DNA from: Thermodesulfobacteriota bacterium
GTDB lineage: Bacteria > Desulfobacterota > WTBG01 > CAIYCZ01 > CAIRTM01
NCBI GenBank assembly: GCA_028282925.1
Contig: JANQGV010000193.1
Location: 1-37,285 of the forward strand
Reading direction: 5' to 3'
DNA: 37,285 bases
Below the pieces are notes generated by a model that saw nothing but the letters and a program-made list of their open reading frames with translations, had not been told where the DNA came from and did no database searches. Every line of letters begins with the position of its first letter. Positions within the stretch are counted from its first letter, which is position 1. This document shows, piece by piece, positions 7,949-16,573 of this stretch. The position numbers were made by a program, and so were the translations under genes.

Positions 7949-8536
7949 ATGCATCAAGCATTAACCAGGAATGTGTACCTTGTTAAAGAGCACGTCGGCA
8001 TGTTTAAGGCGGCCAACAACTACGATATTTACGACCCTGAAACAGGCAGTATCCTTATGGAGTGCCGCGAAGAAAACCTTGGGATTTTGACAAAACTGTT
8101 CCGGTTCACCGACTACAAACGCATGACCCCGTTTGACATACAGGTACGCACCCCGGACGGCAACCGGGTTGTGCGTATCACACGGGGGATATCCCTGTTT
8201 TTGTCCAACGTCACGGTCCTTGACCGGCAAAATCAAAACATCGGTGGCTTTAAACAGAAGTTTTTTTCAATCGGCGGGGCCTTTACGGTGCTGGACGCAA
8301 CCGAAAATCCGGTGTGCCGTTTGCAGGGTAAATGGACCGGGTGGGACTTCAGGTTTATGGACGGAGAGACCGAGCTTGCCCACGTTACCAAAAAGTGGTC
8401 CGGCATCGGCAAGGAACTGTTTACCAGCGCGGACAACTATGTGCTGGAAATATCGGATTCTACCCCAAAAGAAGGCCCGATTCGAGAACTGATTCTTGCT
8501 GCGGTCATGTGTATAGACATGGTTCTCAAAGAATGA
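7949..8536 (+). CDS. Phospholipid-scramblase / LURP-one-related (LOR-fold) protein
   Basis: A 195-residue protein with the layout of bacterial scramblase-related proteins: N-terminal YLVKEHVGMFKAANNYDIYD, then repeated beta-hairpin segments such as FDIQVRTPDGNRVVRITRG and VLDRQNQNIGGFKQKFFSIGG, a WTGWDFRFMDG turn, and a C-terminal hydrophobic helix (IRELILAAVMCIDMVLKE) resembling the buried helix of the Tubby/LOR fold. There is no signal peptide. Function in bacteria is not established; the true lipid-scrambling role belongs to eukaryotic relatives. The ATG follows AAAGGAGACGAGC, a strong ribosome-binding site. It appears monocistronic: a terminator lies before it and a gap of about 750 bp after it. 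Confidence 0.83.
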   Translation: MHQALTRNVYLVKEHVGMFKAANNYDIYDPETGSILMECREENLGILTKLFRFTDYKRMTPFDIQVRTPDGNRVVRITRGISLFLSNVTVLDRQNQNIGGFKQKFFSIGGAFTVLDATENPVCRLQGKWTGWDFRFMDGETELAHVTKKWSGIGKELFTSADNYVLEISDSTPKEGPIRELILAAVMCIDMVLKE

Positions 8537-9011
8537 ACCGAAAATAACGGCAACAGGCAAGACCACACTGCAAGTTTAAGCAGTTCATATCGGCATCCGG
8601 CAAAGCTTTCATCTCTCTATATCCCCTGCGTACATCTGTAGCTGATACGGTAAGGCGGCCACAGTGGTGCGAACTGAGGGTTACATACTGGGTCTGCCTG
8701 TTCTACGCCTTCCCTATATACCCCCCGCAATGCTTGTTAACTCCGAAATCATTACACAAACTCCGCTGGTTACCGCGGGTGCGCCGATACTCTTGTAATT
8801 AAGTCGACTTCTGATCCGGTACAGATCGACTGACCGGCATGGCATCAATCGGTCGGCACCGATTTAGGTTGTAAGCAGGTTGATGTATTTTCGCTCATGC
8901 CCGAATGCGAAGCTTTGGAGGCCTGGGGTGTGATTCAATCGCACACTGTCGCATTCCAAATGTTCTTTCTGCTATTCATACCAGTCTGCTCCGGGAAAAC
9001 ACTCCTCCTTA
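8537..9011 (+). other. Intergenic stretch with one nested inverted repeat, no gene seen
   Basis: No reading frame with a convincing start and protein-like composition was found. The one structure is an inverted repeat: GAATGCGA (8903-8910) with TCGCATTC (8949-8956), nesting a GTGTGA/TCGCACAC pair (8928-8933 and 8939-8946). It ends about 55 bp before the response-regulator box at 9012 and could be a second regulator site or the end of a decayed element. Confidence 0.5.
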
Positions 9012-9065
9012 ATTACAAAAATGTAATGATCCTGCAATCATTCTGTAAGGTTTTCTCAATATACT
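9012..9065 (+). promoter_or_regulatory. Response-regulator box A and its -10 element
   Basis: The box 9012-9049 contains half-sites TGTAAT (9022), TGCAAT (9033) and TGTAAG (9044), exactly 11 bp apart, preceded by an inverted half-site ATTACAA (9012-9018). Ten bases later comes a -10 hexamer TATACT (9060-9065). Head-to-tail half-sites at 11-bp period placed about 10 bp before the -10 are the hallmark of promoters activated by PhoB/OmpR-class regulators. The same module occurs at 13083-13136 with 34 of 38 identical bases in the box. The obvious candidate regulator is the response regulator encoded at 10979. It would drive genes from 9291 rightward. Confidence 0.8.
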
Positions 9066-9498: not shown

Positions 9499-9810
9499 AT
9501 GAATGAAACACAAATGAATGAGAAAAAAGCGAATATGGATCAATTCATTGAGCTTGATGTTAAAAAACTCAAGCACATAGAAGCAGAACGCAAAAGGCTT
9601 TTAAAATTCGCTTTACAATCGGTACCGGATATTCATTTCATGCGCTGTCCGCGCTGTAGCTGCCGTCTCGAAGAGAAGACTATCGACCAAATATCCATTG
9701 TGATATGTGCACAGTGCAAGGGGCTCTGGATACACTCAGAAAGCCTTAAAAAGGTGCTTGGGCTTTCCGGCGACAAGGCGGATAATTTTCTAAAACATGC
9801 AACAAAATGA
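9499..9810 (+). CDS. Small TFIIB-type zinc-ribbon protein (zf-TFIIB family)
   Basis: A 103-residue protein with a charged, helical N-terminal half and a C-terminal zinc ribbon: MRCPRCSCRL at about residues 48-57, then VICAQCKGLWIHSESL. CPxC, then CxxCxGxWxxxxEL, is the pattern of the zf-TFIIB family, whose function in bacteria is largely unknown. The start is uncertain: ATG 9499 has no clear ribosome-binding site, and ATG 9511 or 9535 (the latter after a GAGAAA stretch) are alternatives. It is a partial paralogue of the broken gene at 10337-10637, which carries the same ribbon. It lies in the unit predicted to be driven by box A. Confidence 0.78.
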   Translation: MNETQMNEKKANMDQFIELDVKKLKHIEAERKRLLKFALQSVPDIHFMRCPRCSCRLEEKTIDQISIVICAQCKGLWIHSESLKKVLGLSGDKADNFLKHATK

Positions 9811-9876
9811 TTACGCTTTTTCCAAAAACCCGTTTTTCATTGACCTGTGAGAAGAGCAGGCCGGAGAGGTCACAAA

Positions 9877-10317
9877 ATGCCAGCTAAGAATAACCGTGCA
9901 ATACATATTACAGAATCAGATTATGAAAAGGCAAAGCAGCAACTCAGTTTTTTTTATTGCTTTATGCCCGTCGAAAACAAGGCTTTTAAAAACCTCATAA
10001 TCTTCGACAAAGCTCTCGATCGTGCGACTATTGTTCCAAATAAAGCCATCCCCGCCGGTATCGTTATGATCAACTCGCAGGTTACGCTGGAGGAAATGAA
10101 AACAGGCCTCGAAACAACCTTCATGGTAGCGTTACCAACGCCTGGCGAGTGCATGGGAAAAAAAATATCGATATTTTCACCACTCGGCTGTGCGATTATC
10201 GGGCGCCGGATCGGCGATGTCATTGAGTGCGAAACGCCGCATGGATTCAATACATTTGTTATCACTAAAATTGATAATCGTGCAGATAAAATTGCAGCGG
10301 GGCACGTAACCGGATAA
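9877..10317 (+). CDS. Rnk-like / GreA-GreB C-terminal domain protein
   Basis: The last ~80 residues of this 146-residue protein resemble the FKBP-like C-terminal domain of GreA/GreB and Rnk: IPAGIVMINSQVTL, then KISIFSPLGCAIIGRRIGD and VIECETPHGFNTFVI. A segment LDRATIVP matches Rnk's short linker region. There is no full GreA coiled coil, which favours an Rnk-type protein that binds RNA polymerase without cleaving RNA. I place the start at ATG 9877, since GGAGAGGT lies seven bases upstream; the longer frame from 9847 has no such site. Neighbours are two zinc-ribbon genes and a two-component system, suggesting a role in transcription under stress. Family placement is good; function is inferred. 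Confidence 0.8.
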   Translation: MPAKNNRAIHITESDYEKAKQQLSFFYCFMPVENKAFKNLIIFDKALDRATIVPNKAIPAGIVMINSQVTLEEMKTGLETTFMVALPTPGECMGKKISIFSPLGCAIIGRRIGDVIECETPHGFNTFVITKIDNRADKIAAGHVTG

Positions 10318-10336: not shown

Positions 10337-10637
10337 GTGCCTATCAAACCAACAGAAAAGGAAGAAGCCTACGTTATCAGGCGTGAGTTTAAAAAAGCCA
10401 AAGAGAATGCAAACCGGCAGCAAAAGCTGCTCGAAGCAAAAATCGGATCAGACTGAAGGAGCAGCACTACATGCGCTGCCCCAAATGCGGCATGCAGCCC
10501 GTTGAAATCGATGACAGAGGATGAGGACTGATAAATGCATGGTATGTGAAGGGGTATGGCTTGATTCGGGAGAACTTGAAATGGTTGCAAAACTTGATAA
10601 ATCAGTACGTAACAAATTTTTCGATGCCTTTCGTTAG
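10337..10637 (+). pseudogene. zf-TFIIB zinc-ribbon gene broken by two frameshifts
   Basis: A GTG start (10337) after AGGAG opens 39 codons beginning MPIKPTEKEEAYVIRREF, which ends at TGA 10454. The expected continuation RLKEQHYMRCPKCGM is in a second frame (10444-10524). The second half of the ribbon, CMVCEGVWLDSGELEMV, then KFFDAFR, is in a third frame, ending at TAG 10635-10637. Joined, the three pieces give a complete zf-TFIIB protein of the usual length and motif order. Two separate single-base losses are needed, near 10443 and 10520. Either the gene is a recent pseudogene or the assembly has base-call errors here. A paralogous intact ribbon gene lies at 9499. Confidence 0.72.
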
Positions 10638-10978
10638 TAATCAGGGGCTTTAAAATACGAACAGATGCGATCTCGTTCAACGGTTTGTGGTTTGCAAAAG
10701 AGATAGTCACAGCCCAAGCATCAACAACCATACAAAAACAATGTCGGGAAATACATCAACAGCAGGCCCGGCCGGCAAATGAGTGGTAAAAATTTACCCT
10801 TGGCAAAACAGGCGTTGTTGAGTATAACGGATGAGTCTCCGACAGGCGCGGCCGGACAGGCTGATGCCCCACGGAGAGGGTTGTTGTCGAGCCGGGTCTA
10901 TACGTCTACACCGGTAAGGCTTGTGTTTGGAACCACAGGTGTAATCTACGTCAAAGTCAAATACTAATTATTGAACAG
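10638..10978 (+). other. Gap before the response regulator, possible decayed coding remnant
   Basis: No intact gene is convincing. Protein-like stretches appear in different frames: VVEYNG then [15 protein letters not shown] (about 10814-10918, broken by two TGA codons), and [13 protein letters not shown] (10927-10964) in another frame. Together they read like a beta-rich domain broken by several indels. There is no copy of the TGTAAT box here. The response regulator start at 10979 has only a poor ribosome-binding site, so it may depend on upstream transcription. Confidence 0.35.
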
Positions 10979-11650
10979 ATGCGCATTTTAATAGTCGAAG
11001 ATGAGAAAAAAACAGCCGGCTTTCTAAGAAAAGGCCTCTCCGAAAACGGTTTTGTCGTTGATGTGGCTCACACCGCGGAAGACGGGCTGTTTCAGGCCCA
11101 TGCCTCAGACTACGACCTCGTTATTCTTGATGTTATGCTGCCGGATAAAAGTGGTTGGGTTGTGTTTGAAGAAATGAGGCGGGAAGGCAACAAGACCCCT
11201 GTACTTTTTTTAACCGCCCGCGACAGCGTGGAGGACCGGGTCAAGGGACTTGAACTGGGTGCGGATGACTATTTGGTGAAACCTTTTGCTTTCTCTGAGC
11301 TGCTTGCCCGGGTCCGTGTTGTGCTGCGCAGGCCCCAGGTTCAAAAAGACCAAACAATTGAGATTGCAGACCTTCAGATCGATCTTTTGAAACGCAAGGT
11401 CAAACGGACAGGAAAGCAGATAGATCTAACCCAAAAAGAATTTGTTCTACTGTCTCTGCTGGCAAAACGCTCAGGTGATGCCCTTTCCAGAACCATGATT
11501 GCTGAACAGGTCTGGGACATGAATTTTGACAGCGATACGAATGTAGTCGATGTTGCTATCCGCCGTCTCCGCTCAAAAGTTGATGACCCTTTCGAAAGAA
11601 AACTCATACACACCGTGCGTGGAGTCGGCTATGTCCTCGAAGAGAGATAA
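10979..11650 (+). CDS. OmpR-family response regulator, CusR/CopR-like
   Basis: A 223-residue DNA-binding response regulator. The receiver domain (1-120) has the acidic pocket E7/D8, phospho-acceptor D51 in [12 protein letters not shown]79 in LFLTA and K101 in YLVKPF. The C-terminal winged helix (about 125-220) carries the OmpR-family segments [27 protein letters not shown] and [13 protein letters not shown]. Sequence style is close to the CusR/CopR/CzcR group that answers envelope metal stress. The gene overlaps its sensor kinase by 20 bases, showing a genuine pair. The two matching boxes at 9012 and 13083 have the spacing expected for this class, making them the likely targets. The signal is not known. 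Confidence 0.94.
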
Positions 11651-13061
11651 AAGCGCACACCTTCCACAGTCCTACTCAATTGTTACACGCCTGACCCTTG
11701 CATTTGCTCTCACGGCATTTGGAATGCTGACACTCACAACCGGATTTTTGTATTATGCCCTTGTTTCAACCCTTCACACTAAAGATGAGCGCTTCCTGGC
11801 GGACAAAATAGTACACTTTCGGGACATTATACGGTCATCCAACTATGATGTTCGTGAGCTTGAACAGGAAGTGCAGGCGGGGAGCAGCTACCAATTCAAC
11901 AAGTATGTGGTTAAAATCGTAAACGCCCGGGGCCGGGAAATCATGACGGCGGGAACAAACGCTGTGACGGATACGCTTCCATTCCCCCAGCCGCATGAAG
12001 TCGATGAGGAGCCATTGCAGACCGTTAGATTCAAATCGGCCTCGGGCGAAGTTTTTATCATGATGTCGGCCTGGGCGAAGTGCCGCGACTGTGACGGCCA
12101 CAGGGTTCTTATTAATACGGCTCTTAATGTTACCGTTGAAGAGGCCATCCTGAAGCAATACCGTAAACAAATATTCCTGGTTTTGATCATCGGCATCTTT
12201 CTGGCAGGCCTTACCGGAATGGCCATTGCCCGCCGTGGTTTAAGCCCTTTACGACGCATTACCGCCGTTATCCAACGCATCAGGGCTTCACAGCTTAACG
12301 AAAGGCTTGCTCCGGCCACGTGGCCCCAGGAGCTTAAGATGCTTGCAACATCATTTGACGAGATGCTTGACCGGCTTGAGGATTCCTTTGTCAGGCTTTC
12401 TCGCTTTTCAACAGATATTGCACATGAGCTGAGAACCCCCATCAACAATCTCATGGGTGAAACTGAAGTGTCGCTTTCTAAAACACGAACGATTGAGGAC
12501 TATCAACAGATACTCGAATCAAGCATGGAGGAATATACACGCCTCTCGCACATGATTGAGGGCCTGCTTTTCTTGGCACGAGCCGAAAATACAGACATCA
12601 AACTTGAACGCACCCAGGTAGACCCCATAAAAGAAATACAGGATGTACTGGAATATTACCATGCGCTGACTGAAGAAAAAAAGCTACACGTTCAGTGCCG
12701 CGGAAGTGGATCGGTTTATGCCGATCCTCTCCTCCTTCGCAGAGCCGTGACCAATCTTTTTTCAAATGCATTCAGGTATTCACCCTCCGGCAGCAGCATC
12801 CACATTGATGTTCAGGAGAATGACGATCAGTTTTCATCTATTTTAATCAAAGATAATGGTATCGGCATTGAAACTGAAGAGTTGCAGAACATCTTTGAAC
12901 GCTTTTATCGTACACCGGGGGCAAAATCCCACGATACATGTGGAAGCGGTTTAGGGCTTGCGATCGTTAAATCCATTATGGATCTCCACGGCGGCACAAT
13001 CGAAGTCTTGAGTGTGCCGAAACAAGGTACGACGGTTCACCTCCGATTTCCTGCTCAATAG
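11631..13061 (+). CDS. Sensor histidine kinase, CusS/CopS-like
   Basis: A 476-residue membrane histidine kinase. Order: cytoplasmic tail, TM1 (about 20-43), periplasmic domain (about 44-178), TM2 (about 180-200), HAMP (about 201-252), dimerisation domain with phospho-acceptor H265 in DIAHELRTP, and ATPase domain with N box [24 protein letters not shown] and GSGLGLAIV. Organisation fits the heavy-metal sensor kinase group. The periplasmic domain holds C151-x2-C154 followed by H157 (KCRDCDGH), a possible metal or redox site. I chose ATG 11631, which overlaps the regulator's end by 20 bases (translational coupling); the frame is open further upstream but only inside the regulator. Box B starts 21 bases after the stop. 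Confidence 0.93.
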
Positions 13062-13082
13062 CCCATGCGGCAACTATCTTTC

Positions 13083-13136
13083 ATTACAAAATTGTAATAG
13101 TCCTGCAATCCTTCTGTAAGATTTAAAGGATACAAT
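13083..13136 (+). promoter_or_regulatory. Response-regulator box B and its -10 element
   Basis: The box 13083-13120 has half-sites TGTAAT (13093), TGCAAT (13104) and TGTAAG (13115) at 11-bp period, with an upstream arm making the inverted repeat ATTACAA-N2-TTGTAAT (13083-13098). After exactly ten bases comes the -10 hexamer TACAAT (13131-13136). Layout and sequence match box A at 9012, and the spacer length is identical. It would start transcription near 13143, toward the small zinc-ribbon gene and the chorismate-synthase-like gene. Confidence 0.82.
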
Positions 13137-13153: not shown

Positions 13154-13368
13154 TTGGCGTATGCAACGGTTGCGTTGGGCGGCAGAGAATATGTCGCAGG
13201 GCGACTTACTGCGGTAACTGATATAGTTTTTGACGACGGCTGTTTGTCGATAGAATCCTTCCAGGGTTTGGAATTGTCTGCAGTGAGGTGCCTCAGCCTG
13301 AGATGGCGGCAAGGGAAGTGCTGAGAATTTTTTCAGATAACATTAATGGAGAACCCGGAGGTCATTAA
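13154..13368 (+). pseudogene. Possible frameshifted small gene upstream of the zinc-ribbon gene
   Basis: One frame from 13154 (TTG) reads protein-like text such as GGREYVAGRLTAVTDIVFDD and SIESFQGLELSA, then turns to arginine/tryptophan-rich text after about 13283. A second frame continues sensibly as EVPQPEMAAREVLRIFSDN and ends at TAA 13366-13368, which overlaps the ATG of the next gene (TAATG). A single-base change near 13284 would join the halves into about 72 residues. The overlap with the next start is the kind seen in coupled genes. There is no ribosome-binding site for the first half, because the predicted transcript starts only about 11 bases before. No family is recognised. Confidence 0.35.
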
Positions 13369-13583: not shown

Positions 13584-13742
13584 TGGCGGTTTTAAAGGTC
13601 ATAAAAAGTGATGAGTTGTAATGTCGGCCCTTGATAATACCTTGTTTTAACGAGGATTTTAACTGAACACCATCGGAACGTGAGACGGCTGAAGAATACC
13701 GGAGACGGGCGCACCCAGGCAGTCTCGGAGAGGAGAAACACA

Positions 13743-14885
13743 ATGCTTGGAAACACATTCGGAAGAATATTCAGAATTACTGCTGTCGGCGAGAGCTACG
13801 GCATTGGTAAAGGCAGTGGGTTGGCGGTTATTATAGACGGGGTTCCTCCCGGGCTGGCATTGACCGATGCTCTTATTCAGGAAGAGCTTGATAAGAGAAG
13901 GCCTGGAGTGGGAAAACTGAACTCACCTCGGCTGGAAACCGACCAGTGCAGTATTTTTGCCGGGATAGGTCAGGACAATGTTACCACCGGCGCACCGGTG
14001 GGCATTATTATCTACAACGTCGACACCCAGGATCTGCATGTCGATCAGTATCGGCAGTACAAAGACCTCTGCCGTCCGGGCCATGCGACCTATTGTTTTT
14101 ATAAAAAATACGGCCGACATCAGGATTGGTGTGGTGCAGGCCGTGCATCGGGCCGGGAGACGGCTGCCCGGGTTGCGGGCGGTGCTGTTGCAAAACATAT
14201 TCTGGCCAAAGAGGGCATAGACCTTATATCGTATACGATTCAGTGTATGGACATCAAAGCGAAAGAAATGACCTTTGCAGAAGCAAAAAAGAATTACCGG
14301 AAAAACGAGATCAATTGTCCGGACCTTGAAGCGGCGGAAAAAATGGAAAAGCGGGTTTTGGAAATAAAGGATCAGGGTGAAACAGCCGGAGGAGTTCTCG
14401 AACTCAGGATTAACGGAGTGCCGGCAGGCCTCGGCGAGCCGGTTTTTGATAAGCTGAGTTCTCTGCTCGGACATGCACTGCTTTCCATTGGGGCGATTAA
14501 AGGCATTGAATTCGGCGCCGGATTTAACGTCGGCAATATGCTGGGGTCGGAATGCAACGATGAATTCTGCGAAAAAGACGGTTCCATCGGCTTCAAAACC
14601 AACAATGCCGGAGGGCTGCTGGGAGGTATCAGCAACGGAGATGAAATCGTAGTCCGCCTTGCGGTTAAGCCCACACCAACGATAAGCGTTACCCAGGACA
14701 GTGTTAATATGCCGAAAATGCAGATTGAAAAACTTGAACCGATTACACGGCGTGATCCCACCCTGCTCGGCAGGATTTATTCCGTGGTTGAGGCCATGAC
14801 TGCAATTACCCTCGTGGATGCCTTAATGATGGCCCGTGGGTATGATAATGTCTGCAGGATTGAAAACACATGGAGGGAGATTTGA
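13743..14885 (+). CDS. Divergent chorismate synthase homologue (GESYG variant)
   Basis: A 380-residue member of the chorismate synthase family, which normally converts 5-enolpyruvylshikimate-3-phosphate to chorismate with reduced FMN. Family segments are present: RRPG at 52-55, RPGHATY with H114 (the second catalytic-region histidine), GRASGRETAARVAGGAVAK, VPAGLGEPVFDKL, and NNAGGLLGGISNGDEIVVR. The first signature differs: GESYG (Y19) replaces GESHG, whose histidine is catalytically important, and the usual RHDP motif is RRDP. It may be a second, specialised paralogue rather than the shikimate-pathway enzyme. The ATG at 13743 follows GGAGAGGAGAAACACA; the upstream in-frame ATG at 13680 lacks this support. 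Box B lies about 600 bp upstream. Confidence 0.85.
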   Translation: MLGNTFGRIFRITAVGESYGIGKGSGLAVIIDGVPPGLALTDALIQEELDKRRPGVGKLNSPRLETDQCSIFAGIGQDNVTTGAPVGIIIYNVDTQDLHVDQYRQYKDLCRPGHATYCFYKKYGRHQDWCGAGRASGRETAARVAGGAVAKHILAKEGIDLISYTIQCMDIKAKEMTFAEAKKNYRKNEINCPDLEAAEKMEKRVLEIKDQGETAGGVLELRINGVPAGLGEPVFDKLSSLLGHALLSIGAIKGIEFGAGFNVGNMLGSECNDEFCEKDGSIGFKTNNAGGLLGGISNGDEIVVRLAVKPTPTISVTQDSVNMPKMQIEKLEPITRRDPTLLGRIYSVVEAMTAITLVDALMMARGYDNVCRIENTWREI

Positions 14886-15277
14886 TTCACAATAAATGGT
14901 CATTCTCCTCCTGAAGCCCGGCCGGATATGAATTTCATTGAGTACCGCAAATCGCTGAATGCTGATCGGCCGCAGATCCCGCATGTATCGGGGCTCTCAT
15001 ACACACAGGCTGTGGTTTTAGAAAGACCGTAACCGTGCTTTTTGCTTTGCAGATATTACCCGCCGCCGGGGATCTACTATCTGCTGCGCAGTTCCGCATG
15101 TACTGCAAAGCGGAACCGGTTGTTTTTTTGGGAAGGTGCGGAGTGTATTGGTATTTTCATCTATTCAGGTAGTGGAATAAAAATGAATCAGTTTCTTCTC
15201 AGTCTTTTTGCCTGACGGGTTTGCCGACTGGTTAGTGAATGGATTTTTTTCTATGCCGTCAAAAGAAGGAAACCACG
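14886..15277 (+). other. Intergenic region with a probable terminator, no convincing gene
   Basis: A short ORF of 34 codons at 14928-15032 lacks a ribosome-binding site and a recognisable product. The main structure is the hairpin at 15091-15129, annotated separately. The last 150 bp before the RelA/SpoT-like gene are T-rich and may hold its promoter, but no clear -35/-10 pair could be fixed. Confidence 0.45.
15091..15129 (+). terminator. Probable terminator after the chorismate-synthase-like gene
   Basis: GTTCCGC (15091-15097) pairs with GCGGAAC (15110-15116) around a 12-base loop, followed by CGGTTG and a run of seven T (15123-15129). It lies about 200 bp after the chorismate-synthase homologue and would separate it from the RelA/SpoT-like gene. 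Confidence 0.55.
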
Positions 15278-16573
15278 ATGATGAAACCGTCAAAAATCCC
15301 GAATCGAAGAGAACTGGAAAAAGAATACAGGGCGAACGCCCCTGTTTTTGACAGGATTCTCAACAAGTTTCAAGAAACCCTCAAGTGCGAACTGGCACAA
15401 TTGGGACTGAAAACAACGATAAAATCAAGGCTTAAAACCTTCGATAGTTATTATAATAAAATTCTGCGATTACTCTCAAAGCAGATGAATCTAAAGGAGC
15501 CTTTTGATATTTATGATATGATCGGCGTGCGAATCGTATGTCCTTTCCTTGACGACATGCAAATAGCCGCAAACCATGTGATGCAAAAATATGATGTTGT
15601 TCAGGTCGAACAGAAAGGAAGTGAACACTCTTACAACGAATTCGGCTACAAGTCGACCCATTTTTTAATATCGGTGCCGAGGAAGATGCTGAGCCAATGC
15701 AAGGCTGAAGGGCCGCTGTTCTGTGAAATACAGCTTCGCACTATCCTGCAGGACGCATGGTCCGAGGTTGAGCATGAGTTGATTTACAAAGCAGACTTCA
15801 GCCCTTTTGATGAACCGATGAAACGCAAACTTGCTGCACTCAACGCCAACCTCACCCTTTCCGACACGCTTTTTCAGGAAATACGTGATTACCAGCGAAA
15901 ACTCCAAACAGAGTTGAACAAACGCCGGGAAAGTTTTATGCATACTGTACAAAAGCCGCCGGCAGATAACGGGGCAACCATGCAGCAGGACGCAAATCTT
16001 ACGTCAGCCGCCGCTGAGAAAGAACGGATATCCGAAAGTGTTGATCGAACGAGCAAGAGCGTTGACGACCTTTTGGTTGATGCGCTTGTTGCACATAATG
16101 CAGGACAATTCAAGCAGGCGATTGCAATTTATTCCTCCATTCTGGCGCGTGATTTTTCAAAACACATTAAATCTATTATCCATATCCACAGGGGCATGGC
16201 TTATTTTGCTGAGGGACGTTACACAAAGGCTTTGGAAGATTTCACTGCATCTGCAGAGCTTACCCCTGATAACTACAGAGCATTTTACTACCGCGGGCTG
16301 ACCCATGAAGCTGAACAAAACTACCAGGACGCCCTGGTGGATTTCAACACATGCCTGAAAATAAACCCCTATCAACTCGAACCGCTTTACAGCCGTGCAC
16401 AGCTATACACCCTGCTGGGAGACTACAAAAAAGCAATGGCTGACTGCAAACAGGCATTAACAATCGAGCCGGCGTCACCCAAAGTGCAGCAATTAAAAAA
16501 ACCTCTTAAAACGCACATGTTTTCTTCCAAAAGAGAAACTGCCGATAATACAGCGGCCGGGAAGGCTCGCTAA
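15278..16573 (+). CDS. RelA/SpoT-domain nucleotide pyrophosphokinase with C-terminal TPRs
   Basis: A 431-residue protein. Residues about 20-215 form a small-alarmone-synthetase-type RelA/SpoT domain: IKSRLKTFDSYYNKI, D80 in YDMIGVRIVC, GYKSTHF (123-129), and E150 in EIQLRTILQDAWSEVEHELIYK, the positions used for magnesium and GTP binding in RelA/RelQ. There is no HD hydrolase domain. After a linker, residues about 280-415 form four or so tetratricopeptide repeats (for example FKQAIAIYSSIL and YTKALEDFTASAEL). It may make (p)ppGpp or be a toxSAS-like effector; no antitoxin gene is adjacent. I chose ATG 15278 because GAAGGAAACCACG precedes it; the longer frame from 15239 has no such site. Confidence 0.86.
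   Translation: MMKPSKIPNRRELEKEYRANAPVFDRILNKFQETLKCELAQLGLKTTIKSRLKTFDSYYNKILRLLSKQMNLKEPFDIYDMIGVRIVCPFLDDMQIAANHVMQKYDVVQVEQKGSEHSYNEFGYKSTHFLISVPRKMLSQCKAEGPLFCEIQLRTILQDAWSEVEHELIYKADFSPFDEPMKRKLAALNANLTLSDTLFQEIRDYQRKLQTELNKRRESFMHTVQKPPADNGATMQQDANLTSAAAEKERISESVDRTSKSVDDLLVDALVAHNAGQFKQAIAIYSSILARDFSKHIKSIIHIHRGMAYFAEGRYTKALEDFTASAELTPDNYRAFYYRGLTHEAEQNYQDALVDFNTCLKINPYQLEPLYSRAQLYTLLGDYKKAMADCKQALTIEPASPKVQQLKKPLKTHMFSSKRETADNTAAGKAR

Follow-up and report, generated by a model that had tools for sequence, protein, structure and literature searches.

Chorismate synthase has an unusual mechanism, since it works with reduced flavin although its reaction brings no net redox change. The two histidines of its active site have been named 'invariant'. 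The 37,285-nucleotide stretch of DNA from a Thermodesulfobacteriota bacterium analysed here (the window) encodes an AroC homologue that lacks the canonical catalytic histidine of GESHG and has a tyrosine, Tyr19, instead. A sequence-only reading had drawn attention to this replacement and to the setting of the gene, and had suggested that it may be a neofunctionalised paralogue. We ask whether the protein is still a chorismate synthase, and whether its location has regulatory meaning.

An AroC homologue with tyrosine at the histidine position

The window open reading frame (Table 1) is intact and its product begins MLGNTFGRIFRITAVGESYGIGK. An alternative upstream start is the GTG at 13680; the ATG at 13743 sits behind GGAGAGGAG and corresponds to the start in relatives. 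The protein passes the cut-offs of two NCBIfam equivalogs (PRK05382, 374.7 versus 321 bits; TIGR00033, 362.4 versus 212.2 bits), and PF01264 is its sole Pfam match (364.6 bits, cut-off 27). An AlphaFold model built with 30 relatives has a pLDDT of 87 and a pTM of 0.90, and the PDB chains that match it at E<=0.001 are chorismate synthases without exception (28/28; TM 0.84 to 1QXO). The low-confidence part of the model core is the loop 21–24 beside Tyr19, where the protein has an insertion of 4 residues when compared with the aligned bacterial enzymes. The protein resembles known AroC (PF01264, TIGR00033, PRK05382; 1QXO, 1UM0, 7RCA) in fold, length, the His of RPGHA, the Asp of RxD, serines and arginines, but differs from the solved bacterial enzymes by this insertion after GESYG and by a 3-residue insertion near residues 98–100.

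Table 1. Features at and around the window aroC gene (window coordinates)
Feature	Position	Strand	Evidence
Second copy of extended box, upstream of GreA/B-like and two-component genes	9011..9028	+	Motif search
Heavy-metal response regulator (OmpR family)	10979..11650	+	TIGR01387 341 bits, cut-off 279
Heavy-metal sensor histidine kinase; true start probably about 11631	11550..13061	+	TIGR01386 426 bits, cut-off 293
HprR/CusR-type box CATTACAAAATTGTAATA, then TCCTGCAATCCTTCTGTAAG element	13082..13099	+	17/18 bases identical to E. coli CusR/HprR box CATTACAAAATTGTAATG (PMC9302797)
Remnant of HPr-kinase-like gene C-terminus (PQPEMAAREVLRIFSDNINGEPGGH)	13291..13368	+	DNA similarity 68% over 120 nt, into zinc-ribbon start
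Small zinc-ribbon-like protein (CxxC...CxxC), 71 aa	13368..13583	+	ORF; homologue before aroC of G007 C133, E 1.7e-8
Tyr-type (GESYG/RRDP) chorismate synthase, 380 aa	13743..14885	+	ORF; NCBIfam equivalogs; Pfam PF01264; AlphaFold model
TAC codon for Tyr19, replacing catalytic His	13797..13799	+	Sequence; alignment 27/27 Tyr vs 51/51 His
Apparent remnant of a small hydrophobic ORF	15035..15227	+	DNA similarity 71% over 194 nt to DNA downstream of aroC copy, G007 C37; reading frames compared

Both motif changes described in the sequence-only reading are present in the protein, GESYG with its TAC-encoded tyrosine at residues 16–20 and RRDP at residues 336–339 (within ITRRDPT, 334–340). Alignment column counts give Tyr at position 19 in all 27 readable rows of the clade to which the protein belongs and His in 51/51 canonical rows; the equivalent residues are His17 of N. 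crassa and His11 of M. tuberculosis. An assembly or sequencing error or a pseudogene at this position is ruled out because independent genomes repeat the tyrosine in every readable clade member, and the pseudogene reading is also countered by the dN/dS analysis below. The clade has 31 diagnostic positions. Position 116 is T, E or A in the clade and D in 51/51 canonical rows (RPGHA[T/E/A] for RPGHAD), and position 340 is Thr in the clade and Cys in canonical rows (RRDPT for RxDxC). Position 337 is Arg in the clade, whereas the 51 canonical rows have H, S, F, Y or A; because this middle position varies among canonical enzymes, we reject the notion that the change from RHDP to RRDP represents the loss of a catalytic residue. 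His114, the flavin-protonating His of RPGHA, and Asp338, the active-site Asp of RxD, are each retained in 28/28 rows, and Ser18, Ser136, Arg52, Arg111, Arg134 and Arg138 are also retained in the clade.

In canonical enzymes the RPGHA histidine is the residue that protonates flavin N1; mutating it causes a 20-fold loss, and mutating the RxD aspartate a 300–600-fold loss (PMC3509576). The remaining histidine, His17, is a proposed proton donor to the leaving phosphate, and it is stated that M. tuberculosis His11 and Asp343 occur in all known species (PMC2386126); it has also been considered that arginine might donate the proton instead (PMC12697075). The literature that we searched makes no mention of GESYG or GESHG. 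Kitzing 2004, the primary work on the two histidines, reportedly found mutants of the canonical His17 to be impaired, so tyrosine may be a poor substitute. Tyr19 probably replaces the histidine that is proposed to protonate the leaving phosphate of EPSP; the tyrosine would then donate the proton or bind the phosphate, possibly with help from arginines nearby.

Distribution and pathway context of the tyrosine-type clade

Scanning one genome per species we find 22 GESYG-type loci, in MAGs labelled Deltaproteobacteria/Thermodesulfobacteriota, Omnitrophota, Ratteibacteria, Hydrogenedentes, Pseudomonadota, Bathyarchaeota, Woesearchaeota/Nanoarchaeota and Euryarchaeota. Scores against the clade alignment are bimodal, with full-length members at about 650–850 bits and canonical proteins at or below about 360. 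The phylum of genome G022 has 11 full-length clade genes and one split gene among 26 matching genomes; the clade occurs in 8/104 matching genomes of the class of G028 (fragments counted), in 2/9 of the phylum of G024, and in 4 of the 395 genomes of the window's own phylum, Desulfobacterota, all four from one family. A pattern scan of viral contigs reveals no relative, and plasmid matches to the window protein all lie below 60% identity, the best of them being canonical aroC genes, so that neither phages nor plasmids were identified as carriers.

We placed 83 rows in a tree, where the Tyr rows group with four aberrant GGSYQ rows into a single clade that has 100/100 support and lies within the His rows. 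Because of this, and because only two changes explain all of the labels, the tree implies that the exchange of His for Tyr arose once, with subsequent transfer between distant lineages. The transfer is apparently wide, between domains, and together with adjoining aro genes. Since the nesting within AroC has full support notwithstanding the missing catalytic histidine, we class the clade, as judged by its sequences, as a variant branch of the AroC family and not as a canonical member.

The expectation that a GESYG clade would be linked to two-component genes is borne out only in part: the clade is real, but as a whole it is not tied to such genes, as aroA lies directly upstream in 18/22 loci. 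Many of these also have aroDE, aroB, DAHP synthase, chorismate mutase/prephenate dehydratase (pheA) or tyrA, and aroA and aroE are neighbours at further Omnitrophota loci of the clade, so that most Tyr-type relatives share the operon partners aroA and aroDE with known AroC. The Tyr type is moreover the only AroC found in 17/18 source genomes, although these are mostly MAGs in which a missing second aroC is no proof of absence; G006, at 95% completeness, has the Tyr type only. Of the 18, 16 have one place that matches PF01264; in another genome two such places are the ends of one Tyr-type gene, and G028 carries a canonical gene as well. In most of its lineages the Tyr-type enzyme is the normal final enzyme of the shikimate operon, and the replacement of His by Tyr therefore predates the duplication that gave rise to the window copy and goes with ordinary pathway use.

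Because of these aroA-adjacent operons and of the many genomes with the Tyr type as sole AroC, the best reading is that the exchange is compatible with activity as a chorismate synthase. That the Tyr-type proteins are catalytically dead, their hosts using another route or a canonical fusion, would fit the description of the equivalent His in all known species (PMC2386126), but we regard it as very improbable, as no other AroC occurs in genomes with aro operons, conservation of the clade is strong, and its association with aroA extends to distant lineages.

The four GGSYQ rows come from MAGs of Omnitrophota (L116:787-2136, L117:677-2026, L118:778-2133 and L119:1477-2823). These proteins of about 450 aa have RRDPT or RRDST, an insertion of ~80 residues, and GFFSGRYT or GIFSGRYT replacing GRxSGRET; their stem in the tree is 1.57 and no aro genes are present in the short flanks examined. 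If a neofunctionalised chorismate synthase is sought, these proteins are more promising than the window gene.

Copies of aroC in the window's genome

The assembly that contains the window (G000; 5.6 Mb in 324 contigs, completeness 96%) matches PF01264 at four places, on contigs C105, C123 and C226 and in the window. The second canonical aroC that the sequence-only reading proposed to look for is at C105:5065-6702, where a canonical AroC (GESHG, RHDP) is part of an AroK-AroC fusion. Its chorismate synthase domain is 47% identical to the window protein, from which it differs in these motifs, in the fused shikimate kinase and in the HAD phosphatase gene that follows it (L007:4477-6702). A HAD phosphatase gene likewise comes after the GGSYQ gene of L118.

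The matches on C123 and C226 are RRDP-type C-terminal halves of AroC at contig ends, whose N-termini, and hence the GESYG position, lie outside the assembled sequence. They share 97% DNA identity, and each is 87% identical to the window protein. The C123 half is followed by cytochrome, ResB and CcsA genes in an arrangement that resembles the operonic copy of G005, and contig C80 ends within aroA, just past aroDE; because of these flanks C123 is probably the operonic Tyr-type copy. C226, a 3.5-kb contig of 58% GC with a tetranucleotide correlation of 0.68 with the window, may be contamination, a strain variant or a recent transfer; its AroC half (L006) adjoins AAA+/magnesium-chelatase-like genes. 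The window copy is a second, non-operonic paralogue beside the canonical fusion and the probably operonic Tyr-type copy.

The window copy is under purifying selection, with dN/dS of about 0.035 against C123/C226 at saturated dS. It departs from clade-conserved residues at 7 positions (0–12 in other rows), none of them catalytic, and its terminal branch is 0.14 as compared with 0.08–0.14 for operonic relatives that are sole AroCs. We looked in the window copy for a changed active site or faster evolution relative to operonic relatives and found neither.

These results bear on the proposal that the window copy no longer makes chorismate but acts, for example, as a flavin-dependent lyase or as a regulatory protein of a metal two-component regulon. 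Its position outside the aro operon, its redundancy with the other AroC copies of the genome, the link with metal two-component and zinc-ribbon genes partly kept in two genera, and the existence in Omnitrophota of far-diverged Tyr-bearing GGSYQ relatives without aro neighbours would all be in keeping with such a role. However, its catalytic positions are those of operonic relatives that are sole AroCs, its end branch is like theirs, and purifying selection on it is strong, and we consider this proposal unlikely. Of the earlier suggestion, the paralogy stands, but the neofunctionalisation does not follow from the tyrosine, as Tyr was already present in the ancestor of a clade whose members serve in ordinary aro operons. 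There is no evidence of a new reaction for the window paralogue.

Regulatory setting and proposed role of the window copy

The zinc-ribbon gene and the two-component genes upstream of aroC are real open reading frames, as the sequence-only reading had them, and the kinase and regulator score above their TIGR01386 and TIGR01387 cut-offs, so that a cognate two-component system adjoins the locus. The zinc-ribbon-like protein has no Pfam or NCBIfam match. Just past the kinase gene lies a box with the core ATTACA-N4-TGTAAT (13083-13098), extended by a TCCTGCAATCCTTCTGTAAGATTT element, which lends support to the regulated promoter that had been proposed. The expectation for the exact core is 0.003 occurrences per window, yet there are two (9012 and 13083). 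In the 830 kb of loci examined there is only one further distinct core site, on contig C132 of G007, a genome of a second genus, where it lies 93 nt ahead of an additional aroC copy's ATG; the extended box occupies only three distinct places, two of them upstream of Tyr-type aroC copies. Other genes nearby include a Scramblase-family protein (7949-8536; PF03803, E 3.5e-16) and, just 3' of aroC, a RelA/SpoT-domain protein with C-terminal TPR repeats (15239-16573). The interval from the first box to the response regulator encodes a GreA/GreB C-terminal-domain protein (9847-10317) and has CxxC zinc-ribbon-like coding sequence at about 9530-9810 and again at about 10470-10640, where it seems to be broken.

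Only on G007 C132 is the box directly before aroC. In the window it is 645 nt 5' of the aroC ATG, and because a zinc-ribbon gene, a gene remnant and weak terminator-like hairpins intervene, read-through from the box to aroC is only putative. CusR/HprR-type control of the window aroC is predicted from the motif match, and the E. coli box is that of a distant organism. The setting resembles the CusSR/HprSR regulons (E. coli hiuH-msrPQ, cusCFBA) in its heavy-metal kinase and regulator families and in 17/18 bases of the box. It differs in that the putative target is an aromatic-pathway enzyme, in a different phylum. The hiuH gene is a precedent for a metabolic enzyme gene under the E. coli CusR/HprR box (PMC9302797).

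The position of the gene outside an aro operon and beside a two-component system, as first described, is partly matched in the second genus. The extra aroC on G007 C132 lies behind a remnant of a homologous kinase gene, and on C133 a homologue of the window zinc-ribbon gene directly precedes aroC, with one base between stop and ATG. In G007 an HPr-kinase-like gene precedes the zinc ribbon, and its tail matches window 13291-13368. The window aroC thus has partial synteny with solitary G007 copies on both flanks, and because box, zinc ribbon and flank remnants are common to both genera, the solitary locus is probably older than their split, though rearranged. An HPr-kinase-like gene and AroC as a conserved module is rejected, since in G000, G001, G003 and G008 no zinc ribbon or aroC is directly behind that gene, which is at most a chance partner of aroC. 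MpsC-family genes (PF10057) lie upstream of a solitary Tyr-type aroC of G007 (L041:5087-7835) and directly upstream of the Omnitrophota GGSYQ gene of L118 (L118:250-636), maybe by coincidence.

The window copy might instead be a plain redundant duplicate or xenologue of a Tyr-type AroC that by chance came to lie near a two-component system, in a neighbourhood without regulatory meaning. Gene fragments and remnants around the locus do show repeated rearrangement, and the aroC copies within G007 have different flanks. Against this, the extended box is also present in front of an aroC copy of the second genus, with two of its three distinct places in 830 kb upstream of Tyr-type aroC, and the gene is still intact though dS is saturated; we therefore hold chance placement to be rather unlikely.

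The explanation that we favour, with reasonable though far from complete confidence, is that the window gene encodes a stress-regulated chorismate synthase isozyme of the Tyr-type clade. It would be a working chorismate synthase whose regulation would let it supply chorismate under metal or oxidative stress, while growth would be served by the operonic Tyr-type copy and/or the canonical AroK-AroC fusion. We put forward more tentatively a fuller account, in which a Tyr lineage that also has a loop insertion and corresponding changes at the nearby Asp and at RxDxC gave rise to a copy recruited in two related genera as a metal- or peroxide-induced isozyme.

The Tyr-type clade is a natural clade without the phosphate-side histidine that apparently provides the only chorismate synthase of the pathway in bacteria and archaea that carry it, and is a ready system in which to ask whether that histidine acts as a general acid or just binds the phosphate. 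The window paralogue is in turn a testable case of metal-stress control over aromatic biosynthesis; if the proposal is true, the recruited isozyme would keep aromatic biosynthesis going under stress.
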